A stretch of DNA of 41,111 nt, taken from an uncultured Candidatus Poseidoniales archaeon (GTDB lineage Archaea; Thermoplasmatota; Poseidoniia; Poseidoniales; Thalassarchaeaceae). The stretch spans positions 1 to 41,111 of the forward strand of contig CACOAW010000010.1 of assembly GCA_902625325.1 (NCBI GenBank), in the 5' to 3' direction. This document shows, one piece after another, positions 6,156-28,017 of this stretch; position 1 is the first letter of the stretch; each line of letters starts with the position of its first letter. A program made the position numbers and the translations under genes. The notes below the pieces were generated by a model. The model saw only the letters and a list, made by a program, of their open reading frames with translations, did no database searches and had not been told where the DNA came from.

Positions 6156-6995
6156 TCATTCTCCTTGTTTTACTCGTTCTCCAATTATTATATTCATGGG
6201 GGAGTTTGACGAGGATTGCGCAATCTCGGAATCAACCCCGAAAACCGTAGCAATGTTACTTCGTGTGATGACCTCCGAAGGAGTCCCATCCGCCAATATT
6301 CTACCCTCATGCAGCAGGATCACCCGATCCGAGAATCTCGCGGCTATGTTAATGTCATGTATCGCGAAAACAACAGACTTAGAGCCGCCGCTATTTCTCA
6401 CAATGTCTGTAACTGCTTCCATTACGAGCAATTGATGTTGTAGGTCTAAGTCGCTAGTTGGCTCGTCTAGGAGATAGACTCGAGGATTTTGAACCACAGC
6501 CTTCGCTATAATGACCCTTTGCCTTTCGCCCCCGGAAAGCCTGTCGAACCTTCTGAACGCGAGGTCTTCGAGTCCGAATTTCCTCAAAGTTTCGCTGACG
6601 GCTTCCAGGTCTCTTGGTGAGGTCATCCAGGAAATGTGAGGCCTCCTACCCAGCAGTAGGACGTCGAAAACATCCATCGGAAAGCTTGTCCTAACGGACT
6701 GGGGCACATAAGAGACTGATTTCGACAATTCGATGAGGCTCTGTCTCGATATATCCTTGGAACAGATCTCTACCTTCCCATTTTGGGGGATCTGAACTCG
6801 GTTCAGACATTTTATCAGTGTGGTCTTTCCCGCTCCATTCTTTCCCAGGATTGCAACAATTTGACCACTGATGATTGTAAAACTAATCTCGTCAAGGACT
6901 GTTTTCTCACCCCAGCAGAACCCTAGGTCTCTTACCCTAACGAGCTCATGGTCAGAGCTCCCTGGGTGTTCCTTTCCCGAGTTTGAATTATTCAC
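6156..6995 (-). CDS. ABC transporter ATPase, FecE/HmuV/BtuD type (haem or iron chelate)
   Basis: Cytosolic ATPase powering the FecCD-type permease encoded just upstream. Walker A is GKNGAGKT at residues 51-58, the signature LSGGERQRV is at 153-161, and Walker B VYLLDEP is at 173-179. A Q-loop (VPQSVR) and the H-loop region (VFAIHDINIAAR) are also present. Length (279 aa) fits the family. The start is GTG at 6993-6995, sharing a GTGA overlap with the permease stop, which indicates translational coupling. Family members move haem, ferric siderophores or cobalamin. Haem is favoured because a HugZ-like protein ends this operon and no cobalamin gene is nearby. Confidence 0.9.
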   Translation of the reverse strand: MNNSNSGKEHPGSSDHELVRVRDLGFCWGEKTVLDEISFTIISGQIVAILGKNGAGKTTLIKCLNRVQIPQNGKVEICSKDISRQSLIELSKSVSYVPQSVRTSFPMDVFDVLLLGRRPHISWMTSPRDLEAVSETLRKFGLEDLAFRRFDRLSGGERQRVIIAKAVVQNPRVYLLDEPTSDLDLQHQLLVMEAVTDIVRNSGGSKSVVFAIHDINIAARFSDRVILLHEGRILADGTPSEVITRSNIATVFGVDSEIAQSSSNSPMNIIIGERVKQGE

Positions 6996-8029
6996 ATCAC
7001 CCCTCCCCTATGTCTCATCAGAAGATACATGAAAACCGGTCCACCGATTATTGATAGCATGATTCCAACAGGAATTACGACAGGTGCAAAGAGAGTCCGC
7101 CCAGCGGTATCGGCAAATAGCATCAGGAGTGAACCAGAAACAGCAGAACACGGTATCAGCTTCCTGTAGTCGTTTCCTATGATTAGCCGGCTCATATGGG
7201 GAGCAGCAAGGCCTACAAATCCGATAAGTCCCGTGAATGAGATAACGACAGATGTGAGTAGTGCAGAGAGAATCAGAATGTTTCGCCTGGTCCTCTGAGG
7301 GTCGACACCGGTCGAAATTGCAAAGTCATCCCCTCCCAGGGACATTGCGTTCAGATCCCACGCGAAGATTAGTACCGTCGGCATCAGACATAGGACTATG
7401 GCTCCAATCCAGATGGTATCCTCGAGAGTTGGTCTGGAAAGGCTTCCAAATGACCAGTGAGTCAGTTGCGAGAGCTGTGCGTCAGTTGCAAAGTATGTTA
7501 GTGTGGAAACTATAGCCCCGGAAATGAAAGTTATCGCAATTCCAACCAGTATGTAAGACTCGGCCGAGACAGAGCGCATGCTGCCCAGCTGGATTATGAT
7601 CGCGACGACTAGAAGAGAGAAGGCAAAGGCGTTTGCGACTATGGCAACATCCGGGTAAACAGAGAAGCCCAGTATTATCGCGATTGCCGCGCCTAGAGCG
7701 GCTCCCGATGCGACGCCTAGGGTTAATGGCGAGACCAATGGGTTGCCAAGGCAACCCTGCATTAGTGCTCCCGCAGTGGCCAGTGCTGTACCGGCAATTA
7801 TTGCCATTAGGACTCTTGGCAACCTTAGACCCCATATTATGTCGGACTGGAGCTCAGATGGCGTTTGAATTCCGAACATAATCTTCATTGTTGTTTTTAC
7901 GTCTAAAGTCTCTGAGGATCCAGTTCCCATCGAGAAGACAGCGAATAAGAGCGTCACCATACAAAGAGAGACGACCATCACTAATTGGCGGCTTGCCTTT
8001 TCCTGATGTTCTTTGGTAATCTCATCCAT
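6992..8029 (-). CDS. ABC transporter permease, FecCD/BtuC family
   Basis: Integral inner-membrane permease of about ten helices, forming the channel for haem or iron chelate. Family landmarks include IIAGTALATAGALMQG in the N-terminal third, PLVSPLTLGVASGAALGA, and FTGLIGFVGLAAPHMSR near the C-terminus. The frame is open upstream to 8119, but that would overlap the binding-protein gene by 80 bp. The ATG at 8027-8029 (MDEITKEHQEK) has a GAGGG just upstream and lies 10 bp after the previous stop, so it is chosen, giving 345 aa. It overlaps the ATPase start by 4 bp. Substrate preference is inferred only from operon context. Confidence 0.9.
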   Translation of the reverse strand: MDEITKEHQEKASRQLVMVVSLCMVTLLFAVFSMGTGSSETLDVKTTMKIMFGIQTPSELQSDIIWGLRLPRVLMAIIAGTALATAGALMQGCLGNPLVSPLTLGVASGAALGAAIAIILGFSVYPDVAIVANAFAFSLLVVAIIIQLGSMRSVSAESYILVGIAITFISGAIVSTLTYFATDAQLSQLTHWSFGSLSRPTLEDTIWIGAIVLCLMPTVLIFAWDLNAMSLGGDDFAISTGVDPQRTRRNILILSALLTSVVISFTGLIGFVGLAAPHMSRLIIGNDYRKLIPCSAVSGSLLMLFADTAGRTLFAPVVIPVGIMLSIIGGPVFMYLLMRHRGGVM

Positions 8030-8039
8030 TTGCTTCCCT

Positions 8040-9125
8040 CTATGGGGAGCAGACGAATTTTCCGATTCGCTCAACTCCGTGATATTTGGAGAAGTAATCA
8101 TCCAGATACGACTCCGCATCTACATCGGAAAACAGCTCAGGATGCATTATCTTAGCAAGCGTTGGTAGCCCGTGGATCATCATCGGGCCAGCGAACTCTC
8201 CAGACATTATGGCCATCCTATTGTCAATGACCGCTTCAACATTGTCGAAGCCAGTCCTTTCGATGATGTAATCGAAGTGCGTTGGACATTTACCCCCTTC
8301 ATCATATGAATTAAAGCCAATGTCGAAGACTATCCCGTCGAACATTAAAACGTCGGGATTCGCATTCAAAATCTCCTCCATGTCGACGTGTGTGGTGTGT
8401 CCTGGCAAATCGGCGAACACATTGTCTCCACCCGCCATAGAGACTAAATCGGTCCATTGCGATGTCCCAGTTAATACAACCGGATCGCGTACCAGTGAGG
8501 CATGGTGCTCGATTACCACTGAGGGCCTGTCTGATCTTTCCAACGATGAAACACGATTGGAGACAATCTCCTCAATAGCATCGAACTCATTGAATAGATC
8601 ATCAGCTTCGGATTGCTTGCCGAATATCTCTGCTAGCACTCCTATCTCTTTCCTTAGTGTGTCATATTTGTAAAAGTCCAGTGCCAGAACTCTGACCCCG
8701 ACTGGTTCTAGTTTCTCCCGAATTGCGTTTGTATCCACCATCCCGTTTGTGGCAAAGACGATGTAGATCTCCGGCCTAGTGTCCAAAAGTGCTTCAAAGT
8801 CTATTTCCGAATGGGCGGACTGTTGGACCATGTCCTTCTTGGAGAGTTCGGGCCACAAGCGCTCGTCATAGAAGTCTCCTGAAACTCCAACTATAACCTG
8901 GTTGTCAATGTCGAGCATCCTCATTACGCTCGCAGCATAAGTGTTGGTCAGAACCACCCGCTGGGGAGCACTAGAAAATTTATGCGTCCTGTCATTCGAA
9001 TCTACCACTACAAGGCTGCCACTCTGCGATGACTCTTCGATCCTTTCAGAGACCTGCCAAGCGGCCATTACAGTGACGAGAAAAACTGCGACTTGGAATA
9101 CGGCTAGGTTTTTTGTTCCAACCAC
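8040..9125 (-). CDS. Membrane-anchored substrate-binding protein, FecB/BtuF-like (PBP class III)
   Basis: Extracytoplasmic receptor for the FecCD importer. Residues about 9-23 form an uncleaved-looking hydrophobic anchor with no lipobox. The mature part has the TroA/BtuF-like layout: RVVLTNTYAASVMRMLDID in the first lobe, then EIDFEALLDTRPEIYIVF, then a long linking helix and a second lobe including VSMAGGDNVFADLP. These are typical of ferric-siderophore, haem and cobalamin receptors. It starts with GTG at 9123-9125, sharing one base with the TAG stop of the preceding surface protein. The ligand is not readable from sequence; haem is inferred from the downstream HugZ-like gene. Confidence 0.87.
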   Translation of the reverse strand: MVGTKNLAVFQVAVFLVTVMAAWQVSERIEESSQSGSLVVVDSNDRTHKFSSAPQRVVLTNTYAASVMRMLDIDNQVIVGVSGDFYDERLWPELSKKDMVQQSAHSEIDFEALLDTRPEIYIVFATNGMVDTNAIREKLEPVGVRVLALDFYKYDTLRKEIGVLAEIFGKQSEADDLFNEFDAIEEIVSNRVSSLERSDRPSVVIEHHASLVRDPVVLTGTSQWTDLVSMAGGDNVFADLPGHTTHVDMEEILNANPDVLMFDGIVFDIGFNSYDEGGKCPTHFDYIIERTGFDNVEAVIDNRMAIMSGEFAGPMMIHGLPTLAKIMHPELFSDVDAESYLDDYFSKYHGVERIGKFVCSP

Positions 9126-11533: not shown

Positions 11534-11989
11534 TTACGATATTTCTTTCATCAGTCCCAAGGTGGCCTCCAACCACTCCTCGGCGTAGTCATCATAATCT
11601 GTGTCACAATCTATTCTGTCGTTGACTCTGTTCCCTCCCTTTTCCTCCAGAATTGTGTCCCACTCTTTGCCGGATTCACAGAACAATTCGAAAGCAGTAT
11701 CTCCTAAGGCGAGAACTGCGAAATTGACGCCTTCCATGCTTCCTTCTTCCGTCTCTTCAACAGCATCGTAGAGGTCCTGGGCATTAACTGGCTGTTCCCC
11801 TTCCCCCCATGTACTACAAACTACGATCAGTCTCTTGGAAGTTGAGATGTCATCTGGTTCTATGTCTTCCATGTCCATTACGGTTGCTTCTAAGTCGAAG
11901 CCCTTCGCCATGTTGGCGGCATCTTCAGCCAATTCCTCGGCATTACCGGTTTCTGTACCAAATATCAGTAGTAGACTATTGTCGCTCAT
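11534..11989 (-). CDS. Flavodoxin
   Basis: Small FMN-binding electron carrier (151 aa), commonly substituting for ferredoxin when iron is short. The FMN phosphate loop FGTETGNAEE is at residues 9-18. CSTWGEGEQP and LALGDTAFELFC follow as the two loops around the isoalloxazine ring. The frame is open to a TTG at 12004, but the ATG at 11987-11989 has a GGAGG 8 nt upstream and is clearly the start. It sits between the FEA1-like lipoprotein and the haem uptake operon, all on the same strand, which fits an iron-limitation gene set. An alternative is a sulfite-reductase-type flavoprotein domain protein; the single-domain size favours flavodoxin. Confidence 0.9.
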   Translation of the reverse strand: MSDNSLLLIFGTETGNAEELAEDAANMAKGFDLEATVMDMEDIEPDDISTSKRLIVVCSTWGEGEQPVNAQDLYDAVEETEEGSMEGVNFAVLALGDTAFELFCESGKEWDTILEEKGGNRVNDRIDCDTDYDDYAEEWLEATLGLMKEIS

Positions 11990-12085
11990 GATATAGTCCT
12001 CCAAATTAATGAAATTAAATGATTGTTTTTTCCAACCAGAGTGTTGTTGACGGGGGACCGGTAGTACGGTACCGAAAATGATGCT

Positions 12086-12116: not shown

Positions 12117-13373
12117 TTACTGTAGAGTTCCTATGTCATCTGCGGTTATTCCGAATGCATCCCAAACAGGCTGCAGGTACATTCGAACATGCGCTTCGTA
12201 GTCAGCATCTGTGTCGCCGTCATTCTTCAAGTCGAAGATTTCGACGATCTTGGATGCACCATAATCAGCGTAGTATCCGGGCATGCCACTTCCAGGGAAT
12301 ACTGAGGCGAATCCTTCGCAAATCGTCTCATTTACCCCTTCTGGAGCGTACACTATGTGTACAGCGGTGTTGTAGCAAACATCAGAGCCTTGATAATTTG
12401 TCCACGTAAACGCATCACAAGTGCTGGCCTCGCTCGCCCCGATGTATGCCATACCATGGGTCTTGTTGTTGTAACAAGAATCTGTGTAATCTGCTACATA
12501 CGCCTCGATTACCCTGAAGAAAGCGTGTCCTTCAGCTTGGTGCTTATCGTAGTCGCCGTTTGCCTCATCCAGATCTACGGTCATCTTGGAGGCGTACCTC
12601 ACAGAGGCCTGTGAGTAGACGATTACGACGTTCTTCAGAACCTCATCGCGAGCGTCCACCACTCCCTGCATGTCCTCAGCCACAAGTGCTGCTAGTCCAG
12701 CTTTCATCGCTGCTAGGGTAGCGTCGTTGGTTGCATCTCCAGTTCCGAAGTTGCCGCCTCTCTTTGCAGCTGTTGCGAATGGGCCGCATCCGTCGTAGTC
12801 GTGGCCTGAATCATCTGGGCCATGGTAGAAAGCCCATCCCTCGTCCCAGGCGTGCTGAGCATCATCTGGGCCCCAGTTGCCTGCTTCTGCCTTGATGATT
12901 GCTGCGTTGAGCTCGTGTATTGCGTAGGCGGTCATGACGCCGTTTTGGATACCCTTCTCTACCGCTTGATCTCTAACAGTGTTGGATTCACCAGCAAATG
13001 CACCGGTTCCGCTTATCGCAGCGCTGACGAAATCGTTCCAAGATCCGTCCGCTCCGTAATAGGCGTCGTAGGCATGATTCTTTCCGGAAGCATCTGCAAA
13101 GCCCTGCAGTGTCCTGAATGATCCATCGGACTTCTCAGCGTATTTTCCGTTCTCGTAGATATCTGAGACCTCATCCCAATCATATGCGCCGGAGAGGTCT
13201 TTGATGTCGCAAACGTCTCCCATTAACATTCTATGGTTGTCAACGTTTGAGGCGTAGTTGTAGCCTCCATCCTCGTCATCTAGGTCAACATCAACATCGT
13301 TTCCCGCGCAACCCGCTAGGGCAGAGGCAATCATCAGTGTAGTCATCATTAAACTGGTTAGTCTACCATTCAT
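12117..13373 (-). CDS. FEA1-like iron-assimilation lipoprotein
   Basis: A 418-aa lipoprotein: the signal ends in LAGC, making Cys22 the lipidated residue, followed by an Asp-rich linker. The body resembles the FEA1 (low-iron-inducible periplasmic protein) family of algae. It has HAWDEGWAFYHG at about 174-185, RGGNFGTGDATND at about 205-217, and a second helical unit with HQAEGHAFFRVIEAYVA at about 278-294. These His, Glu, Asp and Tyr clusters could contribute to metal binding; that is inferred. The frame is open to a TTG at 13382, but ATG at 13371-13373 is preferred. A TATA-like TTATAA at 13410-13415 abuts a TTTAGG-N4-CCTAAA inverted repeat, suggesting iron-type repression. Neighbours are flavodoxin and two iron-type ABC importers. 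Family call is by motif only. Confidence 0.75.
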   Translation of the reverse strand: MNGRLTSLMMTTLMIASALAGCAGNDVDVDLDDEDGGYNYASNVDNHRMLMGDVCDIKDLSGAYDWDEVSDIYENGKYAEKSDGSFRTLQGFADASGKNHAYDAYYGADGSWNDFVSAAISGTGAFAGESNTVRDQAVEKGIQNGVMTAYAIHELNAAIIKAEAGNWGPDDAQHAWDEGWAFYHGPDDSGHDYDGCGPFATAAKRGGNFGTGDATNDATLAAMKAGLAALVAEDMQGVVDARDEVLKNVVIVYSQASVRYASKMTVDLDEANGDYDKHQAEGHAFFRVIEAYVADYTDSCYNNKTHGMAYIGASEASTCDAFTWTNYQGSDVCYNTAVHIVYAPEGVNETICEGFASVFPGSGMPGYYADYGASKIVEIFDLKNDGDTDADYEAHVRMYLQPVWDAFGITADDIGTLQ

Positions 13374-13417
13374 TTTGGTCAACTCTTACACGACCGCAAT
13401 AGGTATGTCTTATAATT

Positions 13418-13433
13418 TTTAGGCAACCCTAAA
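13418..13433. promoter_or_regulatory. Putative iron-box operator upstream of the FEA1-like gene
   Basis: TTTAGG-CAAC-CCTAAA, a perfect 6-bp inverted repeat with a 4-bp spacer. It lies 45-60 bp upstream of the FEA1-like ATG and directly beside the TATA-like TTATAA at 13410-13415, so a bound protein would block promoter recognition. The same architecture recurs at 15371-15386. TTAGG half-sites resemble those bound by DtxR/IdeR/MDR1-type metalloregulators, though the spacing differs from the bacterial IdeR box. Confidence 0.65.
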
Positions 13434-13559: not shown

Positions 13560-13820
13560 ATGGGACATTTTGAATTGTCCAACCCCTTGGTGCAGCCAAT
13601 GGCGCTTGTCGATTTGACTGATTTCGAAGCGAGGCTTCTGAAATGGATTTCCGCATCAGACTTCGTCGAAGTTGCTTGGTCGACTAAGAGAGCAGCGGAA
13701 GCCTTCAACGTCAAGGAGAAAGAAGTCTACGAGGCATTAGCGTCCCTTACTGTCAAAGCCAAAGACTACATCCAGATTTTTTACGACGGTGGATCGATTA
13801 GAATTGTCGCGGATTATTAG
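13560..13820 (+). CDS. Small winged-helix-like protein (86 aa), possible regulator
   Basis: The product has an order consistent with a winged-helix fold: LTDFEARLLKWISASD as helix 1, TKRAAEAFNVKEKEVYEAL as a helix-turn-helix candidate, then KDYIQIFYDGGSIRIVAD as the two wing strands. I cannot assign a family. ATG at 13560 has a leaderless-type TATA box and no ribosome-binding site. It lies between the FEA1-like and PhnE-like genes, and its last 23 bp overlap the convergent permease gene. A role in controlling neighbouring iron genes is possible but unsupported beyond position. An opposite-strand ORF at 13460-13714 has low-complexity Ser/Lys-rich content and is judged spurious. Confidence 0.6.
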   Translation: MGHFELSNPLVQPMALVDLTDFEARLLKWISASDFVEVAWSTKRAAEAFNVKEKEVYEALASLTVKAKDYIQIFYDGGSIRIVADY

Positions 13821-14667
13821 ACCTTGGAGGACCTACAGTTTCCTTAGGAGGCAAAATCAGGCCCGACCAGGAAGGCTTTGTCTTCTCAGAGTCATCAACG
13901 AAGAAGGAGCGCAGGTATATGGAAACCATATCAATAATTAGGACTACCAAGAAAATAATCACCAGGTAAGCTGCAACTCTCTCATATTCTAGAAATTTAA
14001 GATAGAGATTGATGTAATATCCAATTCCTCCTGCTCCCACTATGCCGATAACAGTGCCCGATCTAACATTGTATTCGAACATAAAAATCATCTGAGCGAT
14101 CAGATGGTTTGCTGCTTCGGGAATCACGACCCATAGCGAAATTTCAGCTTTGGTAAGCCCCATCGCGTTGGCAGCCTCCAGTGGATCGCTGTTCATACCC
14201 TCAATTGATTCGTATTGCATCTTCCCGAGATACCCCACCGTATAGATTGACATCGCCAAAACTCCCGCTGTAGGGCCTAATCCGACGATAATAACGAAGA
14301 CAATGGCCCAGATTAAGCTGGGCAGGCTTCGACAAGCCGAAACAATGGCTCTAGAAGGGTATGTTATGTAATTTGGGAATAGATTACGAGAGCTTAGCAA
14401 GCCCAAGGGGAGTGATAGTAACATTCCGAAGAATGTTGCAAGTATCGCGATTTTTATTGTTTCAATCATACCAATCCATGCTGTTGAGCATGTGAACTGA
14501 AGGAAATTGTTAACCTCACAGGGAGGATAGGATTGGGGCTCTAGGGCCTTCCATCCATTCCAATCCCAAATTAGACCAGAAGTAAGTTGAACAATCGTCC
14601 AGAAACCGATGATTACTATTGTAACCGAAATCAGTAACTCTTTGAATTCACGATCCATTCCAGCCAT
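13798..14667 (-). CDS. ABC transporter permease, PhnE family; probable ferric-iron import role
   Basis: Integral membrane permease of 289 aa with about six hydrophobic segments. The coupling-helix (EAA-like) motif EAANAMGLTKAEISLWVVIP is at residues 164-183, and SRAIVSACRSLPSLIWAIVF at 105-124 matches the PhnE-type core. A GGAGG 7 nt before ATG 14667 lies inside the end of the ATPase gene, three bases away, so the two are coupled. PhnE permeases normally serve phosphonate or phosphate-ester importers. Here the only binding protein in the cluster is transferrin-like, so a ferric substrate is proposed. It overlaps the convergent 86-aa gene by 23 bp. Confidence 0.87.
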   Translation of the reverse strand: MAGMDREFKELLISVTIVIIGFWTIVQLTSGLIWDWNGWKALEPQSYPPCEVNNFLQFTCSTAWIGMIETIKIAILATFFGMLLSLPLGLLSSRNLFPNYITYPSRAIVSACRSLPSLIWAIVFVIIVGLGPTAGVLAMSIYTVGYLGKMQYESIEGMNSDPLEAANAMGLTKAEISLWVVIPEAANHLIAQMIFMFEYNVRSGTVIGIVGAGGIGYYINLYLKFLEYERVAAYLVIIFLVVLIIDMVSIYLRSFFVDDSEKTKPSWSGLILPPKETVGPPRSNNPRQF

Positions 14668-14670
14668 GAT

Positions 14671-15345
14671 CTATACCTCCAAAATCGAAGTGTCAGTTAT
14701 GAATGGATTCAGTCGGCCGTCGTCTATTATGAGGAGTCTATCGGAAATTTCCTTAGCTCTAGCGATATCGTGTTCCACTAATATCATTGCAGCACCGCTC
14801 GCTGACACGTAATTTGTCACTGCTTTGGTGACTTTCATCGATGTTTTTTCGTCTAACTCACTAAGGAATTCATCTGCCAAGATTAGTTTCGGTCGCTGCG
14901 CCAGAGTTCTGGCTATTGCAACCCTTCTTTGTTGGCCTCCAGACAGACGTTTTACTGACTCGTATTTTTTTTCCTCCAACCCCATTGCTATAATGGAATT
15001 AATTGCTCTTTCTTTGGAATCTGAACTACTCCTCGCCGCTCTTGATCCGAGCATAACGTTGGCCCATACACTCGAGTGTCTGACAAGACCGAGTTTCTGA
15101 GGAATATATCCGATTGTCCCTCTCCTAGGCCTTTCTGGAGATCTAACTCCGTCCACTTGAACCAAACCTGATATAGGCCTCAGAAGTCCTGAAATCGTCC
15201 TCAGAAGAGATGTCTTTCCTATTCCAGAGGGCCCTGTAATTGCCAATATTTCACCAGAGCTGATTTCTAATTTTTCAATGGATAGTAGGGTCGAGCGAAA
15301 ACCGACCTCTAAATTTTCCAATCTAACTACCGCTGGCACACCCAA
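14671..15345 (-). CDS. ABC transporter ATPase, PhnC family; probable ferric-iron import role
   Basis: Cytosolic ATPase for the adjacent PhnE-type permease. Walker A is GPSGIGKTS at residues 38-46, the signature LSGGQQRRV is at 134-142, and Walker B LILADEF is at 154-160, followed by the D-loop SELDEKT. At 224 aa it is a compact PhnC-like subunit. No ATG is available: the start is TTG at 15343-15345 or GTG at 15337-15339, both plausible for a leaderless message from the divergent promoter. The iron-box-like repeat at 15371-15386 lies just upstream, shared with the transferrin-like binding protein. Substrate assignment rests on that partner, not on this protein. Confidence 0.87.
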   Translation of the reverse strand: MGVPAVVRLENLEVGFRSTLLSIEKLEISSGEILAITGPSGIGKTSLLRTISGLLRPISGLVQVDGVRSPERPRRGTIGYIPQKLGLVRHSSVWANVMLGSRAARSSSDSKERAINSIIAMGLEEKKYESVKRLSGGQQRRVAIARTLAQRPKLILADEFLSELDEKTSMKVTKAVTNYVSASGAAMILVEHDIARAKEISDRLLIIDDGRLNPFITDTSILEV

Positions 15346-15370
15346 ATGGCGGATGCTTATTCTTTTGATG

Positions 15371-15386
15371 TTTAGGTAGGCCTAAA
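15371..15386. promoter_or_regulatory. Putative iron-box operator in the divergent transferrin-like/PhnCE promoter
   Basis: TTTAGG-TAGG-CCTAAA, the same perfect 6-bp inverted repeat with 4-bp spacer found upstream of the FEA1-like gene. It is centred in the 71-bp gap between divergent genes. On the plus strand it abuts TTTATCAATA at 15387-15396, a TATA-like box about 25 nt before the ATG at 15417. On the minus strand an AT-rich box at about 15355-15365 lies between it and the ATPase start. One bound repressor could shut both promoters. Confidence 0.7.
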
Positions 15387-15416
15387 TTTATCAATAATAT
15401 CCAATCCGGTGAGTTT

Positions 15417-16493
15417 ATGACCTCAATGATTGACAAAGTAAGAGAGCTATCTCAGGGAAAGACGGTTCCAATTGCATTGGCTGGAATTATACTTTCTGCC
15501 GCGGTGCTGTGGGCCTTATTTACAGTAAGCTACGACGAGTGTGGGGATGATGATGACTGCGTTAGGATCGCCTATGAGGTAAAGGACACATACCTATTTT
15601 GGGAGGCGAACCCACAGGAGATGGCAGACAAACTTAGCGAATTGACTGGAATGAAGGTTGTAGTCTACCCAGTTTCGAATGAGGTTGCGGCAATTGAGGC
15701 TGTGGCCAATGGAAATGCCGAGATTGCCATGGTAGATGGAGCGGCAGGTTGGTTGGGTTACCAGGTTTACGACCTCGACGTTGTGGCAGTTGAGAAGAAG
15801 CCTGACGGCAGGGTTTTCTACAACGCGGCGGCTTGGGTCAAGGCTGATTCAGAAATCGCAGCAGCACACTTGGACGACGACCCTGATACGGATCCGTTCG
15901 AAATTATGAGAGGAAAGAAATCATGCCATACAGGCTGGTTGAAAAGCGCTGGAATGCTAATCCCCATGGGCTACCTCATCGGTAATGGATATGCGGAAGT
16001 GGTCGGGGATCCAAACGAAATCGAGTCATTGAGGGCGACTGTGACTAACTTCTTCAACGAGGACTCCGAAATACCAGAAGGCGGAACACAGTATTCAGGC
16101 TACAAAGGTGCCATGAAGTGTATGATGACGGGCCATGGAGACATTGCACTAGTCAAGGATACAGCTTATCGCCTGTATTGCGATGAAAACGATGATGGAA
16201 TCGCAGACGGACCAGATTGGTGTCTCGAGCTCGATGAGTTGGTAATGCTTCCTTCCTTCGGACAGGCTCCCAGCCATCCAGTTATGTACGATCCTGCCAG
16301 GATGGACCAAGAGACAATGCTTGTAATCCAGGAAGCCCTACTCGCTCTCGACGATGATGCTGAAGGGCGTGAAATTCTCAACGACGTTCTCAACACGGCA
16401 GGGATGGTCGCTAGTACTGGAGATGAGCATCTGGGTACTTATTCAGACGCGGTTTCAAATGTACCAGGGATTCAGGCCTACATAGAGAAGTAG
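15417..16493 (+). CDS. Transferrin-like single-lobe substrate-binding protein of an ABC importer
   Basis: A membrane-anchored (helix at about residues 17-36) extracytoplasmic protein of 358 aa. By fold it belongs to the PhnD/transferrin group of binding proteins. It contains GKKSCHTGWLKSAG at 166-179 and GYKGAMKCMMTGHGDIALVK at 228-247, close to transferrin's GKKSCHTGLGRSAG and [20 protein letters not shown]. All four transferrin Fe3+ ligands are in register: Asp107, Tyr135, Tyr229 and His287 (APSHPV). The anion-site Thr172 is kept, and the anion Arg is Lys176. Cys170/Cys235 and Cys255/Cys269 match two transferrin disulphides; the second pair has identical 14-residue spacing. It is divergent from the PhnC/PhnE-type genes and shares their operator. 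It probably delivers ferric iron, not phosphonate; this is inference from ligands. Confidence 0.85.
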   Translation: MTSMIDKVRELSQGKTVPIALAGIILSAAVLWALFTVSYDECGDDDDCVRIAYEVKDTYLFWEANPQEMADKLSELTGMKVVVYPVSNEVAAIEAVANGNAEIAMVDGAAGWLGYQVYDLDVVAVEKKPDGRVFYNAAAWVKADSEIAAAHLDDDPDTDPFEIMRGKKSCHTGWLKSAGMLIPMGYLIGNGYAEVVGDPNEIESLRATVTNFFNEDSEIPEGGTQYSGYKGAMKCMMTGHGDIALVKDTAYRLYCDENDDGIADGPDWCLELDELVMLPSFGQAPSHPVMYDPARMDQETMLVIQEALLALDDDAEGREILNDVLNTAGMVASTGDEHLGTYSDAVSNVPGIQAYIEK

Positions 16494-16501
16494 GGTCCTA
16501 A

Positions 16502-17680
16502 ATGAGAAGTTGGTTAATTGTCTCTTTCCTGGTGATGACCTGTCCTTTTGCTGGTTGTCTTGCTGGCGAGGACGAGTTTGTCTGGCCTGAGCCTGATAAT
16601 TGGGATTGTTCCATTGAGCCAAGTTACAACTTATCCTGCAGCGTGTACTTAGAGGGATTAAGCAGCCCAATATTCTCCCTAAATCATCCAGAGGACGATG
16701 AGTTGTGGATAGTTGAATTATCAGGTCGAATTAGCTCATGGAACGGAGAAGTAACTTCTGAAGTTGCAGACCTAGGCACGATAGTCAGCGACTGTCACGT
16801 GGAACAGGGGCTCCTCGGCATGGCATTCGCCCAATCTTCCAATAGCAGCCATTCTGTACTTCTATCCTACATAGAGGAGGGAAGCTGCGATGGCCCAAAT
16901 GATTCCGACCTTTTGCTGTCCTCCGCCTCGATTAGTTCTGACGGGACCATAGACATGGCAAGCATTACCAAACTCAAGACTGTTGAACAACCCTTCAGAA
17001 ACCACAATGGAGGCCATCTATTGAACATAGGGGATAATCAGTATCTTTGGGGTCTAGGCGATGGTGGAAGCGGTTATGATCCGGATGGAAATGGACAGGA
17101 TCCATACACCGAACTGGGCTCCATACTCTACTTTTCCTTCACGGACGGGGAAGTTAATCCTGTTCTGCAAGATGGTTTAGGGGATCCTTTCGTTCTCCAT
17201 TACGGATTGAGGAATCCTTGGAGATTTGACTTGGATAGTGAAGACAGACTATGGATCGCGGATGTAGGCCAGAGCTGCTGGGAAGAAATCAATCTAGTGT
17301 CCATGGATATTCAAGCAAACTTGGGTTGGGCCGATATGGAGGGAAGCAAGCCTATGAGTGGTGATCCATGCAACACAGAGTATGCGAATTACACCGTCGA
17401 TGAGGAGTACACAATACCTGTGGCGTCATACCCACACACCGGCGGGAACTGCTCAATTACTGGTGGATTCTGGATGGACTGGGGGCCGGAAGATCTCAGA
17501 GATGGTTATCTGTACGGGGATTTCTGTAGTGGTTCAATTTGGATTCTCAAGGAGGAAAATGGGGGCTGGATGCAGAATTACGTTGGTTCGAGCGGTGGGA
17601 TGATTGTCGGATTTGGCCAAGGATTGAATGATGAGCTTCTCGCCTTCCACTGGACGGGGGAAATTGTCCAAATTGGTTGA
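16502..17680 (+). CDS. PQQ-dependent sugar-dehydrogenase-like lipoprotein (GSDH/HHIP beta-propeller)
   Basis: A 392-aa exported lipoprotein; the signal ends in FAGC with Cys19 lipidated. The body is a six-bladed propeller of the soluble glucose/sorbosone dehydrogenase family. It shows EQGLLGMAF at 101-109, RNHNGGHLL at 166-174 (His168 matches the usual catalytic His), LGDGGSGYDP at 185-194, YGLRNPWRFDLD at 234-245 and LWIADVGQ with EEIN at 250-263. PQQ binding is likely but not proven, and no PQQ-synthesis genes are seen. It begins 8 bp after the transferrin-like gene, so the two are probably cotranscribed from the iron-box promoter. The physiological substrate is unknown. Confidence 0.85.
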   Translation: MRSWLIVSFLVMTCPFAGCLAGEDEFVWPEPDNWDCSIEPSYNLSCSVYLEGLSSPIFSLNHPEDDELWIVELSGRISSWNGEVTSEVADLGTIVSDCHVEQGLLGMAFAQSSNSSHSVLLSYIEEGSCDGPNDSDLLLSSASISSDGTIDMASITKLKTVEQPFRNHNGGHLLNIGDNQYLWGLGDGGSGYDPDGNGQDPYTELGSILYFSFTDGEVNPVLQDGLGDPFVLHYGLRNPWRFDLDSEDRLWIADVGQSCWEEINLVSMDIQANLGWADMEGSKPMSGDPCNTEYANYTVDEEYTIPVASYPHTGGNCSITGGFWMDWGPEDLRDGYLYGDFCSGSIWILKEENGGWMQNYVGSSGGMIVGFGQGLNDELLAFHWTGEIVQIG

Positions 17681-21255: not shown

Positions 21256-24200
21256 TCAGCCACCGCCTCCCTTATTCTGCTGCGAGTAGTACTGCGCATA
21301 GTATTGCGTGGCATACTGCCTTGCCATCTGCTCTTCATATCCCTGTGCCACGAGCTGTTGCACGTAAGCCTCAACTGGGTCCATCTGCTCAACTCCACCG
21401 AATGACTCCACGGAATCCTGCTGATCAGACCCCCCGCGCCCTCTCATGAACATCATCGTGGCTCCGAGAACGGCAATTAGCAGTAGTGCCCCTATTCCAG
21501 CAAACATCAGAGTGGATGCACCCCCACTACTTCCCTCATTGCCATCCTGTTCCTCATTGGACCTAGGGACGGTATACAGAGTGATTTGGTCATCGACGAC
21601 GTAAGCACCCTCTGTGAGCTTGATGTGGATGACACCTACGTTCCCTTCTGTTTCTAGATACTTGTGGGATATGTTGAGTGTCAGGAAATACTGATCGCCG
21701 TCGCATAGCCCTTCCTGCCAGTCGAACCTTCCTAACGCCTTCTGGGCGGTCTTGATTCCATCGCTCTTACCGAATATCGAGAGGTCATCCAATGAGGCCT
21801 CTACCTTGACGTCGCAATCCGCACTAGCGTCGTTGTCGACTACGGTTCCCGTGATGTTGATTATGTCAGACTCCAATCCGTTGAATGACTCTCCGTCTGC
21901 CGTCGCGATGCTATCGAACTGAACCTCTGGGGGAGCATCTCCGAACATCTCTCCAACTACCTCGAAGAAGACTCTAGTTGGTTGCTCGTTCCTCTGGTCC
22001 CTCTTATCGTAAACGGTAAGTTCGACCATTATGGTGTTCTCTCCTGCAGTTAGATTCCTGAATGTGTAGGTCCACTCTACTTGGCTGCCTGGCAACTCGT
22101 AAGACTGCACGTTGTCACCGTCTCCATTTACTGACCAAGTGAACTTTCCAATTCCAGTTCCGATATCGCTACTCTTGGCAGAGGAGAATCGAATGCTAGT
22201 GTCTCCGGTGTCAGATAGCCTGACTCGGTACTTGGGAGAATCGACCATTATCCAGTTGCCGTTTTCATCCTGCTTTCCTGTCGGTGTCTGCTGATATCCG
22301 ACGAACTCGACGAAATCGGTGAAGGATGAGTCCTCCACGATCTCGATATGAGCTTCTGGAGGCGTGCTGTCAGCGTTGATATCGTTAGTGTACAAGGAGA
22401 TGTTGGTTATCCTTGTATTCCCGTAGGAGTCGTGAAGGAACAACCAGATTCTCCACTCTGCATCGATCTTGCACCCTAGTTCGGCATTCTCATCTGGGAC
22501 GCAGAATATGGCTGTAGCAGGCTGCGAGGAGTTCGAACTGTGCACGTGGTTGTTTTCGCTTCCCAGGGACTGTCCGTCCCAACCAGTTACTGCCTCACCG
22601 TTAGCAGACTCAATCAACCAGTCTGCATGAATCCCTGGCACGTCCGTCTCAAATCCGAACTCCAGCTCCGCAGAGCTCTTGATTGCCTTCCTGGCGTAGG
22701 CTCCGGTGAGTACGTCGATGGATTGGACTTCACCGTCAATAGTTAGCTCGAAGCCTTCTCCTGCTATTTCTAATCCATCTGGGTATGGGGTCAGGTGGAA
22801 GTCAAGGAGGTTAGACAGCATTGCGAAGTTTGGGCCTCCGAATGGCTGTGAGACAGCGGGATTTTCTACATCTATTGTAGTGATAATCATCCCTCCCTCC
22901 TGTACATTGCAAGTCGAAAGAAGAGATTGGCTGGGGTTATCCGAGTCGCGGATTATCGTATGGAAAGTACCCCCGTCACTTATTTTCCCGCCTTCAGTTC
23001 CGCCTGGAGCTCCGTCCGCACATACCTGTGGTATGTTATCTGGTTTGACTTGATTCAGGTCAAGTGCCGACAATGCTACGTGCGTCCCCCCATTTATTCC
23101 CGACAGGGATGATGGGTCGATTCCAGACATCAGGGGATGATAGGGATCTATCAGGCTCACGTTCTCCGATAACACCCTATGATCCACCGTGTCATTATGG
23201 TGGTCCCTCATCACTACGTTCATTCCAAATGGTAGCCGGTCTGGGGAATTCGGATTCTGTATGTCTTCGTAGTCCGAATAGTATGGCCCTAGATGTACCT
23301 GAAGAGTTCCTCCCTTTTGCATGAAACTGATTAGAGTCTCAGTCATTGTGAGGTCTGCGTTATCAGGGTTGGGAGTGCCCAGAAGCTCGTAGTAGTCGCC
23401 GTACTCGACGTTGTAATCAGTCTGCCATGGAAGCAGAACCTTGGAGTAGTGCTCAAGCCAGTCCTCCATTCCGTAAGTGTTCCAGTCCACCACTTCGAAT
23501 TGTGTGTATGTCTTGTTCATCGAGGATAGGTCCTGCTTGACCCTTTGCAGTCTGTTCTGGTCAGTGGGGTTGGAGAGGATTGCGACGTCAATGTTGTCGA
23601 GGAACTCGATCGAGAAGAACCTCTCATTACCAGAGAGCTCTCCAGTCCCTACCAATGTGGATTGGAAGCTGATGTTGTAGGTATGGGAATCGAACCACAA
23701 GTCATAGGGAGCCGTCCAGTTAGCCTGGTCCCTCTGGTGCGGGTCTAGAACGAAAGGTCCATTGTCGGATGGCTCCTCATATACGGTCTGACCCGTGTCC
23801 TCGTCCACTATCTTCATGGTCACCTCGTAGATTCCCTCTATTACACCGTTTAGCATTGGAACAGCAAAGTTGTGCGATTGCTGGCCTTGCGGGTTGGTAG
23901 AGTATACGCAGGAGTAGACCGCATCGGCGACGCAGTCGAGAACATCCGCCTGGAGCAGCGTGATGTCAGCATTAGCGATCTCGAACAGAATGGTAGATAC
24001 GTTGTTCGCCTGGCTGATTTCCGGCTTGTCGAACCAATTGGTACTATTGTCCGTGTTGTTGTATATGGTCATGAGGTCAATCCTGTAGAGTCCACTCTCG
24101 AAGTCATGGACCCCCATGTCAATGACTCTCTTCTGAGCAGCATCCATTCCAGTTACTGTCTCTGTGTATGTACCATCATCATCGAAAGTGTAATCATCAA

Positions 24201-27200
24201 CCCTAATGTTGTCGATTCCGAATCCGGCGTATCCGGCGTTTCCATTTACTCCGTCGTCATTGGAGTAGAACCTCCACGTGAAGGTGACCTCGGCTCCGGC
24301 CAGTGATGTACACTCGTTTGTCCACGCGATCGAATCCTCGGCTGTCGTGTTGAGGATATGAACATGGGTCAGATCAATCCTAGCCGTGTTCACCAGGTTG
24401 TCGGAGTCGAACCATGTGACGAAACCATCTTCACCGATGCCACCCGAGTGATCCCCGACATACTGGACCTCCTCGAAAAGGCCATTCTGGTCGAAGTCCT
24501 CGCAATAGTTGTAGACGGTTTCGGTGTAAGGATTGTACGCGTACCTCAGACCGTTGTCGTTCAAGTCTGTCCAACTGCCTCGTATCGTTCCATCGAATAC
24601 CTCTCCATTCTTGACCCAGGTTATCTCAAGGTAAGTGAAGTCTCGAACTGATTGGACGTTCCCGTTTCTGTCAGAAATATGATCACCCTCGGCGAAGTAG
24701 TCGAAGCTGAGGAAAGTGAAGTCCGCTCCGTTGTCTGTAAGTTCAATCGGCTCGAGTGTCAGGGTTTCGTTCCAGTTGTCACCATAACCATCCGAAGGGT
24801 GTCCTAGCCAATATGCTTGGTTCTTGAACACGCCTTGATTTTGGGGTAGCATATCGTTTGTCCCTGTACTATCATCCATTCTAGTACCGTTCTCTTCGCA
24901 GTCTGGCTGGTCGGGTTCGCAATCTTTGTCCTCACTCCAAATCGATAGTCCTGATCCGGAATCGGATGCGAAATCCTCCACTGCAATCAGTTCTGGCAGG
25001 GCATTCCGAACCTTCGCCTCCACATCGAAATCCACGAACGTATTACCCCAGTTCTGCACACCAACAGTGATGGGCATCTCCCCGGACGCATACCTTTCCC
25101 CATTGAGAAGGTTGAGCCATGGCTCCTCGAATAGGCCCGGATCGTACAGGTTCCTGACCGTAAGCTGGAACCGAGTCTCGTCATTGGTGCTGTCTTGGTC
25201 TGCCTGCCCCGAACCCAAATTGAAGTTAGAAAGAACGGTCGAGATGTAGTACGTGGTGTTGTCCAGGAAGTCGGCCGTCAGTTGGACCTGAAGGGACTCG
25301 CCAGCGAGAAGATCCAGATTCTCTAGCTGTTGGCTCTCGAAAGTTGAGGCGCCGAAATTTACGTCCCTGGTCCTGATGGATATGTTGTCAATTGCGAAAC
25401 CGTCCAGTCCCGAGTAGTCCAGGGATCCTTCTGGGCCAACGGTTCCCTCCAAGCCGCTCCTGAAACGGAATCTGATGTCGATGGTCTGTCCGGCATACGG
25501 AGTTAGATCGATCGAGTCTGCCATCTGGTCCTGGCCCCCGTCTTCCCAACATCCATAGAGAAGAGCGCAGGAATCTCTGATTCCCCCGGAGTCTGTGTAG
25601 TTGTTCCACATAGTGCTGTGGTAATCCCCGAAGTAGTTGAAATTGTAATCATTGTATTCGGGGTCGGGCGCGCTCGAGACTCTCTCTTCGATTTTGTACT
25701 TCCTCTCGTTGTCCCAGCCGCCATACCTCCAGACGGTCTCCCATCCACTGCCATCACTCCAAACCTCGATGCTGCAGGAGTCCTCGTACAGCCATCTCTC
25801 GATGACGTCATATGGTTCGTTCAAGAATAGTTCGAAGAAGCCAGCAGTGCATATTGCATCCATGTCCAAGAATGCTGCATCAGCACCGGATAGATCGATG
25901 CCCTCCAATATCAGGGCCTCGTCCATGTGGTTGTAGTAACCGGTATCGTCGGTGGTATTGCCGTCATCTAACTCGTAGGTGTGAGTTACTCCGGACCAGA
26001 AGTAGTTAGTTGGGTTGGTCTCAGCCTCCCAGTATGGATACGCAACGGGTCCATCCCAGGATTCGTTGTTTTCCTCGGGGTTGCCGTCCGCGGCGAGGCA
26101 TGTGTCAGTCCCGTTTGGCATGCATTGGTAGTCACTGTTGTTGAAGTGGACAACATCGTACTCTTCGTAGTCTTGGCTTATCCAATATCGATCATCGTTT
26201 ATGTGCCACGAGGAGTTCCCTAACTCATATTCGCCCGTGTACGAGTACTTGTTCAGAGTGGCTCCCCCATCGTTGATATTGGGCGAGTCGGTCTCGAAGT
26301 CGTTGAAGTAGACAACAGTGTCAGTACCGCCAAGTACCTCCCTGACCTCAAGGTCGACATCGAAGCTTCCACTTGATATGGGCATCAGACCTGTGTTCTT
26401 CACGGTGACGTTGACCCATCGATTACCCTCGCCGACGATGCTCTGGAATGTCGCAGGATCGGTTACAGACGGTTCAATCTCAACCCTGGTAATTCCGAGA
26501 TCATAATTATCTAAAACCAATACAGAAAGATAGTCACCCTGACCAGCATACCCCTGGGTATCCAACCACATGGCATTGTTAGAGAATCTGTATGTGTAGT
26601 CCTCCTGGCCGATTACAACCTCCAGTGCGCTGTTCTCGCCTCCCTGGAGCTGCCCTGGCATAGCCATGGTAGGCCTCCTTCCTACATCGAAAGAGAGAGG
26701 TGGCAGGTATCCGTCAGTATTTGGGTCTGCAAGCAGAATCTGCACGGTGTTCAGGGCTCTCAGGTTAGGCCTGAGAAGGAAGGTCTGGTTCTGAACCGTT
26801 GACTCCTGGGTATCCAAGAGGGTGAGGGATGTCGGGACGAAGAAGTCCAACTCCCCGTCCTGGTTAACGTCTGCAATGGTTACGGATGCTCCGAGGAAGT
26901 CTCCGAAGGCAACGTAGTTCTGCTTGTCCCATCCCGAGGATGTCTTGGTGGCGTATGACACGTTTCCTGTGATGCCGTCTACTGTCGCGATGATGTCTAT
27001 CTCATTGACCTCATCGTCGGGGTTGGAGTCTGCTATGTCGAACCCGTACATTGGGTAGTCGTGTTCAGCATCGAGTTTGAACTCGTGAATTGTCCCTGAG
27101 CCGGTTGGGTCCATCGGGTTGGGGAACTGTCCAGTGACGCAATCGTACTCGAGCACGGTCACATTGTCGAAGGTCCCCGCGGAGTATCCAACACCTGCAT

Positions 27201-28017
27201 TGAACGGGGGAGTTCTCAGAAGCCAGATGTCCAGATCCTCGCATTCTCCTGGAACCGGATCCCCGGTGAGAGGATTCGTAAGGAGGTCCTCGTTCCAATT
27301 ACCCAACTTGAGGTACTGATAGTAGCCGCTTGTGAGAGGAACCGAGATGGGCGTGTGCTGATTGGAGGGGAGGCTGTAGTCAGGCCCCTTGTATATCTGA
27401 ATGAACTGGTTGGCGAATGTAGCGTCAGTAGACGAGAATACAACATCGGTGTATCCGTCGTCATTGATGTCTCCGACATCGAAACCCGCGAGATATGGGT
27501 TGATTACGGTGATTGTTTCGAACATCTCCTCCCATTCGTTGACCCTCTTGTCGCATTCTCCCTTGAGAACAGTGAGGTTCGCTGGTCTGATGAACGATTC
27601 ACCGACGAACCTAACGTTCTGTTGGTAGTAGATGATGTCGTTAACATCGTCGCCGTCAACATCGGCTATCTCCACGCGATTTCCGTCGGCGACGTCTCTG
27701 AAACCTGCCCTGTACGAGTCGTTGTTGGATATCTGGACGTCCTGCCTATCCGCGAAGCCGCCGTTTCCATCGTTGTACAGGAAGCTAATGAAGTGTCCAA
27801 AGCCGCTGCCGGAGCCTATGTCATTATCCCCATCGCAGTCCAGATCTCCAATCGTGATGTAGAGGGGATCTCTCTGCACTGCGTATTGAGTAGTGTGGGA
27901 AGCAGAAGCATAGGGCACTGCCGAGACGAACAGTGAAGTCAGCATGAGGAACACCAGTCCTACTGCCCTCCTGCCGCTTCCATGCTTACGGTTTCCATTC
28001 ATACTTACGTTCATCAT
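21256..28017 (-). CDS. Giant cell-surface protein (2253 aa) with FG-GAP-like repeats and cytosolic tail
   Basis: A signal peptide (hydrophobic GLVFLMLTSLFVSAVPYASA) leads into several Ca-binding, FG-GAP/VCBS-like units in the first 400 residues: DLDCDGDNDIGSG, DVDGDDVNDIIYY, DINDDGYTDVVFS, DVNQDGELDFFVP. CARDB-like beta domains follow, e.g. WVNVTVKNTGLMPISSGSFD. Two MAM/jelly-roll-like domains end in FAIDNISI and FGIDNIRV. Next come an alpha/beta segment resembling GATase-like folds (NIDVAILSNPTDQNRLQ) and Ig-like repeats. One helix at about 2168-2191 precedes a 62-residue tail ending QNKGGGG. It is probably an adhesin or surface-layer-associated protein; function is inferred. Start is a tandem ATG at 28017; the in-frame ATG at 28002 is possible. 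Confidence 0.85.
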   Translation of the reverse strand: MMNVSMNGNRKHGSGRRAVGLVFLMLTSLFVSAVPYASASHTTQYAVQRDPLYITIGDLDCDGDNDIGSGSGFGHFISFLYNDGNGGFADRQDVQISNNDSYRAGFRDVADGNRVEIADVDGDDVNDIIYYQQNVRFVGESFIRPANLTVLKGECDKRVNEWEEMFETITVINPYLAGFDVGDINDDGYTDVVFSSTDATFANQFIQIYKGPDYSLPSNQHTPISVPLTSGYYQYLKLGNWNEDLLTNPLTGDPVPGECEDLDIWLLRTPPFNAGVGYSAGTFDNVTVLEYDCVTGQFPNPMDPTGSGTIHEFKLDAEHDYPMYGFDIADSNPDDEVNEIDIIATVDGITGNVSYATKTSSGWDKQNYVAFGDFLGASVTIADVNQDGELDFFVPTSLTLLDTQESTVQNQTFLLRPNLRALNTVQILLADPNTDGYLPPLSFDVGRRPTMAMPGQLQGGENSALEVVIGQEDYTYRFSNNAMWLDTQGYAGQGDYLSVLVLDNYDLGITRVEIEPSVTDPATFQSIVGEGNRWVNVTVKNTGLMPISSGSFDVDLEVREVLGGTDTVVYFNDFETDSPNINDGGATLNKYSYTGEYELGNSSWHINDDRYWISQDYEEYDVVHFNNSDYQCMPNGTDTCLAADGNPEENNESWDGPVAYPYWEAETNPTNYFWSGVTHTYELDDGNTTDDTGYYNHMDEALILEGIDLSGADAAFLDMDAICTAGFFELFLNEPYDVIERWLYEDSCSIEVWSDGSGWETVWRYGGWDNERKYKIEERVSSAPDPEYNDYNFNYFGDYHSTMWNNYTDSGGIRDSCALLYGCWEDGGQDQMADSIDLTPYAGQTIDIRFRFRSGLEGTVGPEGSLDYSGLDGFAIDNISIRTRDVNFGASTFESQQLENLDLLAGESLQVQLTADFLDNTTYYISTVLSNFNLGSGQADQDSTNDETRFQLTVRNLYDPGLFEEPWLNLLNGERYASGEMPITVGVQNWGNTFVDFDVEAKVRNALPELIAVEDFASDSGSGLSIWSEDKDCEPDQPDCEENGTRMDDSTGTNDMLPQNQGVFKNQAYWLGHPSDGYGDNWNETLTLEPIELTDNGADFTFLSFDYFAEGDHISDRNGNVQSVRDFTYLEITWVKNGEVFDGTIRGSWTDLNDNGLRYAYNPYTETVYNYCEDFDQNGLFEEVQYVGDHSGGIGEDGFVTWFDSDNLVNTARIDLTHVHILNTTAEDSIAWTNECTSLAGAEVTFTWRFYSNDDGVNGNAGYAGFGIDNIRVDDYTFDDDGTYTETVTGMDAAQKRVIDMGVHDFESGLYRIDLMTIYNNTDNSTNWFDKPEISQANNVSTILFEIANADITLLQADVLDCVADAVYSCVYSTNPQGQQSHNFAVPMLNGVIEGIYEVTMKIVDEDTGQTVYEEPSDNGPFVLDPHQRDQANWTAPYDLWFDSHTYNISFQSTLVGTGELSGNERFFSIEFLDNIDVAILSNPTDQNRLQRVKQDLSSMNKTYTQFEVVDWNTYGMEDWLEHYSKVLLPWQTDYNVEYGDYYELLGTPNPDNADLTMTETLISFMQKGGTLQVHLGPYYSDYEDIQNPNSPDRLPFGMNVVMRDHHNDTVDHRVLSENVSLIDPYHPLMSGIDPSSLSGINGGTHVALSALDLNQVKPDNIPQVCADGAPGGTEGGKISDGGTFHTIIRDSDNPSQSLLSTCNVQEGGMIITTIDVENPAVSQPFGGPNFAMLSNLLDFHLTPYPDGLEIAGEGFELTIDGEVQSIDVLTGAYARKAIKSSAELEFGFETDVPGIHADWLIESANGEAVTGWDGQSLGSENNHVHSSNSSQPATAIFCVPDENAELGCKIDAEWRIWLFLHDSYGNTRITNISLYTNDINADSTPPEAHIEIVEDSSFTDFVEFVGYQQTPTGKQDENGNWIMVDSPKYRVRLSDTGDTSIRFSSAKSSDIGTGIGKFTWSVNGDGDNVQSYELPGSQVEWTYTFRNLTAGENTIMVELTVYDKRDQRNEQPTRVFFEVVGEMFGDAPPEVQFDSIATADGESFNGLESDIINITGTVVDNDASADCDVKVEASLDDLSIFGKSDGIKTAQKALGRFDWQEGLCDGDQYFLTLNISHKYLETEGNVGVIHIKLTEGAYVVDDQITLYTVPRSNEEQDGNEGSSGGASTLMFAGIGALLLIAVLGATMMFMRGRGGSDQQDSVESFGGVEQMDPVEAYVQQLVAQGYEEQMARQYATQYYAQYYSQQNKGGGG

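Follow-up and report, generated by a model that had tools for sequence, protein, structure and literature searches.

The window analysed here, a stretch of 41,111 nucleotides from contig CACOAW010000010.1 of an uncultured Marine Group II (MGII; Candidatus Poseidoniales) archaeon whose own assembly amounts to 1.42 Mb and is 79% complete, encodes a single-lobe transferrin-like protein (TF1) next to an ATP-binding cassette (ABC) ATPase of the PhnC type and a permease of the PhnE type. TF1 is carried by the plus strand and the PhnC and PhnE genes by the minus strand, so TF1 is divergent from both, with a 71-bp gap to PhnC (Table 1). An earlier note on this DNA had described an open reading frame (ORF) beside PhnC/PhnE-type genes, and this ORF is present at the stated position. 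The N-terminus of TF1 carries a membrane anchor (predicted helix, residues 16-39). The central proposal of that note, a transferrin lobe acting as the ferric-iron receptor of a PhnCE-type pump, is supported by the sequence, by a gene order that recurs within this archaeal order and by iron-type promoter boxes, and TF1 very probably belongs to an ABC importer for ferric iron which, in Marine Group II/III archaea, uses a membrane-anchored transferrin lobe as its receptor.

Only two Pfam families match TF1 at E<=1, namely Transferrin (PF00405; 59.6 bits, curated cut-off 20.3) and Phosphonate-bd (PF12974; 80.6 bits, curated cut-off 27), and no family of the FbpA type appears at that threshold. When TF1 was compared with the PDB by phmmer, 97 sequences were matched at E<=10, the best 60 of the 97 being transferrins with horse lactoferrin at the top (3e-20), and a profile of 44 sequences yielded 109 PDB matches, of which the best 60 are transferrins or saxiphilin, headed by lactoferrin (1e-44). 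The PhnD and PhnC models of NCBIfam gave lower scores than their cut-offs demand: TF1 reaches 22.7 bits with the PhnD model TIGR03431 (cut-off 261.1) and 41 bits with TIGR01098 (cut-off 112.05), and the window ATPase 134.4 bits with the PhnC model TIGR02315 (cut-off 266.1). A control PhnD from a C-P lyase operon (L198) scored 93.7 bits with TIGR03431 and 120.9 bits with TIGR01098; since this PhnD itself falls below the TIGR03431 cut-off, only TIGR01098 separates PhnD from TF1. Conversely, PF00405 was unmatched by all three bacterial PhnDs scanned, and a horse lactoferrin piece remained under the cut-off of PF12974 (17.6 bits).

The residues that the earlier note had singled out as transferrin diagnostics proved to be correctly positioned. 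In a 44-row alignment of single-lobe sequences (the window protein together with single ORFs taken from 43 of 80 loci), D107, Y135, T172, K176, Y229, H287, C170, C235, C255 and C269 are invariant (44/44). HMMER alignment to lactoferrin puts Asp107 on the aspartate of LDGG, Tyr135 on the first Tyr of YYAVAV, Tyr229 on the Tyr of GYSGA and His287 on the His of PSH, and we take D63, Y95, Y188 and H249 to be the corresponding iron ligands of human transferrin. The same alignment places Thr172 on the Thr of CHTG and, as the note had anticipated, Lys176 on the anion-site Arg; the human counterparts of these two are presumably T120 and R124, residues that are usual rather than defining. Cys170 and Cys235 align with lactoferrin cysteines and are predicted to form a disulphide, presumably equivalent to human C118-C194. 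The second pair, Cys255/Cys269, which we assume to correspond to C227-C241, is present, but the identical 14-residue spacing on which the note had relied turned out to be a coincidence of the window subclade, because the spacing varies from 6 to 14 across 156 lobes (12 in 90 lobes, 14 in 10, with no pair found in 2) and the columns are out of register with the lactoferrin cysteines. Counting that of the window, there are 80 unique single-lobe proteins, and the Asp, Tyr, Tyr, His set is complete in 77 of them; the three incomplete ones are two pieces from the gapped locus L036 and L100, with Asn for the second Tyr. In two-lobed proteins, the set is complete in 30/38 N-lobes and 27/38 C-lobes. 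The anion-site Thr is found in 80/80 single-lobe proteins. A chance or motif-only likeness to transferrin was considered and discarded on the grounds of the PDB and Pfam matches and of the conservation over 44 rows.

The AlphaFold2 (AF2) model of TF1 (pLDDT 89, pTM 0.81) was matched by Foldseek both to melanotransferrin (8e-15; transferrin N-lobes give TM scores of about 0.5-0.6) and to the arsenite receptor AioX, which belongs to the PhnD superfamily (7e-15; TM score 0.55-0.70), with sequence identities among the best 50 Foldseek rows of 19-25% for transferrins and 15-17% for AioX, ArrX and PtxB. TF1 is thus predicted to adopt the transferrin fold; as AioX and melanotransferrin are ranked together, the fold fails to separate the PhnD and transferrin families. 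The AF2 model of a two-lobed relative was poor (pLDDT 66) and was left unused.

The proximity of transferrin-like (TF) and PhnC/PhnE genes recurs in related genomes. A pattern-led contig scan found 283 stretches that encode relatives, the best 80 of which were kept. PhnE lies at most 2 kb from TF in 71/80 named loci; eight of the remaining nine are without a recognised PhnE in the stretch (several reach the contig edge), and one is without an intact ORF. Among 69 other loci, a set that shares genomes with the named one, PhnE is equally close in 53; ORF calling missed the TF gene in L099 and L101. The commonest gene order is TF-PhnC-PhnE on a single strand. Among 118 unique proteins, the length of 38 indicates two lobes, and eight two-lobed copies (L034, L037, L040, L044, L050, L066, L067 and L152) have altered ligands in both lobes. 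All of these except L066 are accompanied by a ligand-complete TF in the same locus, and for L066 a ligand-complete TF (L065) is encoded elsewhere in the same genome, G032. In three further two-lobed proteins (L057, L059 and L079), Glu replaces Asp in the C-lobe. The window copy is a divergent paralogue and falls within a subclade (support 99/93) whose members have a membrane anchor in place of a lipobox and a GSDH gene alongside.

A DtxR-like palindrome recurs in front of many TF genes. The window holds two exact copies, whereas shuffled sequences give 0.08 even at one mismatch allowed, and the exact TTTAGGNNNNCCTAAA palindrome occurs at three sites in the whole assembly, before TF1, before an FEA1-related gene and 29 bp upstream of a gene for a 773-aa protein that combines M28 peptidase and ZIP metal-transporter domains, against 0 sites for a reversed control pattern in the same 1.42 Mb. 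Across 21 genomes, we counted 34 palindrome sites (in 18 genomes) versus 4 for the control pattern. Of these 34, 32 belong to TF/FEA1 loci and the other two are the ZIP site and a site in G012 (L205:4710; G012:C19:44709), which lies inside a called ORF, before its SufC homology and at the head of sufC-sufB-sufD, and which suggests that Fe-S assembly may be part of the same regulon in that genome. In TF-centred loci, 108/111 palindromes of the named set precede TF, and of 100 in the other set 77 precede TF and 19 FEA1; exact boxes are present at 93/115 unique TF genes, with two or more at 41. By gene class, boxes were found for 10/10 FEA1, 126/152 TF, 14/128 PhnC, 0/126 PhnE, 1/18 flavodoxin and 0/15 GSDH genes, for 12/684 unlabelled neighbours and for 56/334 other window-type neighbours, a class in which one intergenic gap may serve both the neighbour and TF. 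The window's own assembly encodes one DtxR-family protein, at G000:C1:109668, and the palindromes would be the operators of an iron (DtxR-type) regulon.

The second palindrome in the window precedes a gene for an FEA1-related lipoprotein, so that a member of a family linked to algal iron assimilation and a transferrin-like gene occupy one locus under the same palindrome. Further along the minus strand lie a gene for flavodoxin, an iron-sparing electron carrier, and genes for a separate importer (Table 1). The GSDH-family lipoprotein encoded directly after TF1 recurs beside TF1-type genes in several genera and may help to release or reduce the iron. On the minus strand, positions 21256-28017 hold a very large ORF of 2253 aa, whose product has a hydrophobic stretch close to the C-terminal end.

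Table 1. Features of the TF1 locus and of the palindrome-associated M28-ZIP gene (positions refer to the window unless another locus is named).
Feature	Position	Strand	Remarks
TF1, single-lobe transferrin-like receptor	15417..16493	+	358 aa; PF00405 and PF12974; phmmer to lactoferrins 3e-20
PhnC-type ABC ATPase	14671..15345	-	TTG start; PF00005 107 bits; best NCBIfam match TIGR02315 (PhnC), 134 bits
PhnE-type permease	13798..14667	-	TIGR01097 218.6 bits
DtxR-like palindrome TTTAGGTAGGCCTAAA	15371..15386	.	divergent promoter; 25 bp from PhnC, 30 bp from TF1
DtxR-like palindrome TTTAGGGTTGCCTAAA (minus-strand reading; TTTAGGNNNNCCTAAA type)	13418..13433	.	35 bp upstream of the FEA1 ORF
FEA1-related lipoprotein, probably of iron assimilation	12117..13382	-	NF038033 348 bits (cut-off 250); PF07692 69 bits
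Flavodoxin (context gene)	11534..12004	-	PF00258 109 bits; no exact palindrome ahead of the gene
GSDH-family lipoprotein adjoining TF1	16502..17680	+	PF07995 70 bits; synteny in other genera
Context genes for the FecCD permease and Peripla_BP_2 receptor of a siderophore/B12/haem-type importer	6992..9125	-	PF01032 283 bits; PF01497 80 bits
M28-ZIP protein	L204:7353-9674 (G000:C5:67352-69673)		palindrome upstream

PF00405 is matched above its cut-off in 48/60 genomes of the group (own genome included), in 15/22 of those at least 90% complete, and in 112/389 genomes across the phylum (24/203 of the near-complete ones), with 3 of the 112 outside the class; none of 14 control genomes was matched. 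The best relatives of TF1 come from Ca. Thalassarchaeaceae, Ca. Poseidoniaceae and Marine Group III. Beyond the phylum, sampling comprised the 14 controls, plasmid and viral collections and the contig scan. In the plasmid collection, a relative was found on a Natronococcus occultus plasmid (L197:7087-10465, NC_019976.1; 33.5% identity, with the 87% coverage split over two pieces), where an apparently broken gene follows a DtxR-family gene (PF02742, 97.9 bits) and precedes ATPase and PhnE genes; an iron-sulfur repair gene lies close to this cluster. A tblastn search of the plasmids with the haloarchaeal piece matched only itself, and the scan of viral contigs gave no relative of TF1. One locus labelled Deltaproteobacteria (L164, JAOMAZ010000020.1) probably bears a wrong label, because the listed relatives of that genome have their matches at contig coordinates identical to those in Poseidoniales genomes. 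One-off transfer or contamination was rejected as an explanation, the gene being widespread in the order and also found in three genomes from further Thermoplasmatota families. Among the openly available journal papers listed by literature searches, no title or abstract opening concerns an archaeal transferrin, and these proteins may already carry automatic transferrin labels in public databases.

A number of observations weigh against an iron receptor of this kind, and they concern distribution, promoters, scores, residues and, as described further below, the anion site and gene order. PF00405 is unmatched in 12/60 genomes, 7/22 of those at least 90% complete, so the transferrin-like gene is not universal in the group, and the Natronococcus relative, inspected by eye, keeps the Thr, Tyr and His motifs but is without the Asp and both cysteines. 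The palindromes resemble DtxR/IdeR operators, and the boxes may be under manganese (MntR-type) instead of iron control. In the profile comparison suggested in the earlier note, TF1 passes PF00405 but scores higher with PF12974 (80.6 vs 59.6 bits), an outcome that the note had named as one half of a joint argument against its own proposal; PF12974 outscores PF00405 in 7/8 intact proteins scanned (window, L067, L099, L100, L101, L110 and L139), the sole exception being the two-lobed L172 (144.3 vs 146.8 bits), and it does so in the Natronococcus occultus piece as well. In addition, the window permease barely passes the PhnE equivalog TIGR01097 (218.6 vs cut-off 216.7), and PhnDs share the first Tyr (4/4), the anion Thr (3/4) and a His at the H287 column (2/4).

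The permease score, the PF12974 scores and the shared residues would also suit an importer of phosphonate or phosphate, in which the transferrin-like residues reflect shared fold ancestry without iron binding. We nevertheless consider such an importer very unlikely, as TF1 scores far under both TIGR03431 and TIGR01098, all four PhnDs are without the Asp, the second Tyr (Tyr229), Cys170 and Cys235 at the aligned columns (the alignment is unsure at such distance), the three PhnDs scanned are without a PF00405 match, and iron-type boxes are common to TF, FEA1, ZIP and suf genes. PhnJ of the C-P lyase was found in 0/60 genomes, own genome included, with a positive E. coli control, PhnJ being the only phosphonate enzyme searched; C-P lyase is the usual, not the obligatory, company of PhnCDE importers. 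Plain PhnD identity of TF1 was likewise rejected, given the missed NCBIfam cut-offs and the PhnD controls without part of the residues. In 40 genomes (own genome included), all places scoring above the PF12974 cut-off are transferrin-like genes, bar one 148-aa fragment in G013, a genome in which no PF00405 match was seen. A further argument for phosphonate import comes from Tully 2019 (PMC6336850), which names phosphonate transport among the MGII core traits. We infer that this trait meant the PhnCE/transferrin system, which suggests that its reading as phosphonate transport deserves re-examination.

Small profiles built from four plasmid-borne PhnDs and from four mammalian lactoferrin pieces with incomplete lobes place the archaeal family between the two. 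On 80 single-lobe proteins, the PhnD profile scores a median of 52 bits (9 on the lactoferrin pieces) and the lactoferrin profile a median of 71 bits (10 on the PhnDs, of which 3/4 were matched and one was unmatched), and the archaeal profile gives 70-89 bits on lactoferrin pieces and 24-40 bits on the four PhnDs. The window protein itself is nearly equal on the PhnD and lactoferrin profiles (57.6 vs 54.3 bits), and the column of the animal anion Arg, in keeping with what the earlier note had said of Lys176, holds Lys in 75/80 and Gly in 5/80 single-lobe proteins; these are the anion-site points announced above. The replacement of the Arg and the intermediate position of the family would both fit the import of iron together with phosphorus, with Fe3+ bound alongside phosphate or phosphonate as the synergistic anion, held by Lys176 and a PhnD-derived helix start, and phosphate is usable by ferric-binding proteins according to PMC2860717. 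Phosphorus binding is, however, hypothetical, PhnJ is missing from the 60 genomes searched and the boxes point to metal control only. This possibility, which shares the iron part of our interpretation, is the most interesting alternative, and an unlikely one.

As to gene order, the window TF1 is divergent from PhnCE rather than co-stranded, and TF1-type genes of other genera mostly lie beside GSDH and away from PhnCE (L053, L065, L074, L078 and L109). TF1 could on these grounds be a surface iron collector that works with its GSDH neighbour, with PhnCE served by a different transferrin-like receptor whose gene escaped the 79%-complete assembly, and five genomes of the same genus (G003, G006, G009, G014 and G023) do encode a second, two-lobed TF next to PhnE. 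The second TF has altered iron ligands in these five genomes, however, and in the window's own genome, G002, G007, G020 and G026 (72-85% complete) TF1 is the sole PF00405 gene and is divergent from an adjacent PhnCE. Moreover, L064, from another genus, has its TF1-type gene downstream of PhnC-PhnE on the same strand. We regard a separate collector as a possibility of some weight, if on balance a doubtful one, and the window TF1 likely feeds the adjacent PhnCE. The probabilities that we attach to the various alternatives overlap and do not sum to one.

A tree was computed from 43 rows, comprising 35 of 156 archaeal lobes (kept if >230 aa and <68% identical to rows already kept), four lactoferrin lobe pieces and the four PhnDs. 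It contains three groups, PhnD (98/96), lactoferrin (99/95) and archaeal (72/87, the last not starred), but it is unrooted and came with a warning of long branches meeting. The notion of a living intermediate between binding proteins and animal transferrins therefore holds as a statement on sequence distance, in that the family matches both profiles, and not as one on rooted phylogeny. Within L057 the two lobes are sisters (96/96), and in lactoferrin, too, N-lobe and C-lobe fall together (99/95); the archaeal and animal doublings thus look independent. The residue pattern is consistent with an iron site that arose around a pre-existing anion site. We give roughly even chances to a scenario in which the first transferrins were receptors that served ABC importers of prokaryotes, when a PhnD-type anion receptor gained the Asp and the other ligands, in which marine archaea still use this iron receptor with PhnC/PhnE and animal transferrins descend from it, two-lobed forms having arisen independently, and in which the MGII core "phosphonate transport" is transferrin-based iron uptake. 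The reverse route, a transferrin acquired by these archaea from a eukaryote, would account for the strong PDB similarity to animal lobes. It is highly improbable in view of the great diversity of the archaeal forms (32% identity between the window protein and L100), the relatives in other Thermoplasmatota families and the broken gene in a haloarchaeon, the match of archaeal forms, unlike lactoferrin, to the PhnD profile, and the placement of the archaeal genes in an ABC cluster.

In the importer that we envisage, Asp107, Tyr135, Tyr229 and His287 would hold Fe3+ and a synergistic anion in the cleft. The anion would sit on Thr172 and Lys176, where a helix begins that goes back to an anion receptor of the PhnD type. 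Once closed, the lobe would dock on PhnE, with PhnC driving import, and an iron-loaded DtxR-family regulator would repress expression at the TTTAGGNNNNCCTAAA boxes. The homology, the conserved residues, the recurrent grouping with PhnC and PhnE and the boxes with their distribution are observations; the metal and the anion, the docking of the window copy and the regulator are what these lead us to infer. If correct, this describes an iron-uptake system for an archaeal group that is abundant in the ocean.

Transferrins are generally introduced as proteins of animals and of some algae, and the case for a kinship to periplasmic binding proteins has so far been one of fold likeness. A sequence family that bridges PhnD and transferrin and still resides in an ABC cluster makes the origin of transferrins testable. 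With animal transferrin and lactoferrin lobes, TF1 shares the Pfam cut-off passed, the four iron ligands, the anion Thr and the cysteines of the first disulphide, and two-lobed forms also make up 38/118 of the unique archaeal proteins. The archaeal lobe differs in being prokaryotic, membrane- or lipid-anchored and encoded with an ABC ATPase and permease, in having Lys for the anion Arg and in the spacing of its second cysteine pair. The PhnCDE importer and PhnD (PF12974, TIGR03431) have in common with the archaeal system the type of permease and ATPase, the gene neighbourhood and the passing of the PF12974 cut-off, whereas TF1 lies far under the PhnD equivalog cut-off, has the full set of transferrin iron ligands and stands behind iron-type promoter boxes, in genomes where PhnJ was found in 0/60. 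FbpA, called the bacterial transferrin, belongs to another family of binding proteins, whose iron site is convergent, and the FbpABC ferric importer is alike in outline, in that Fe3+ and an anion are held in a cleft and passed to an ABC pump. Finally, the algal phytotransferrin ISIP2a/FEA1 (PF07692) has a relative in the TF1 locus itself and belongs to a family distinct from the TF1 lobe; ISIP2a itself is described as being internalised by endocytosis (PMC7676907).

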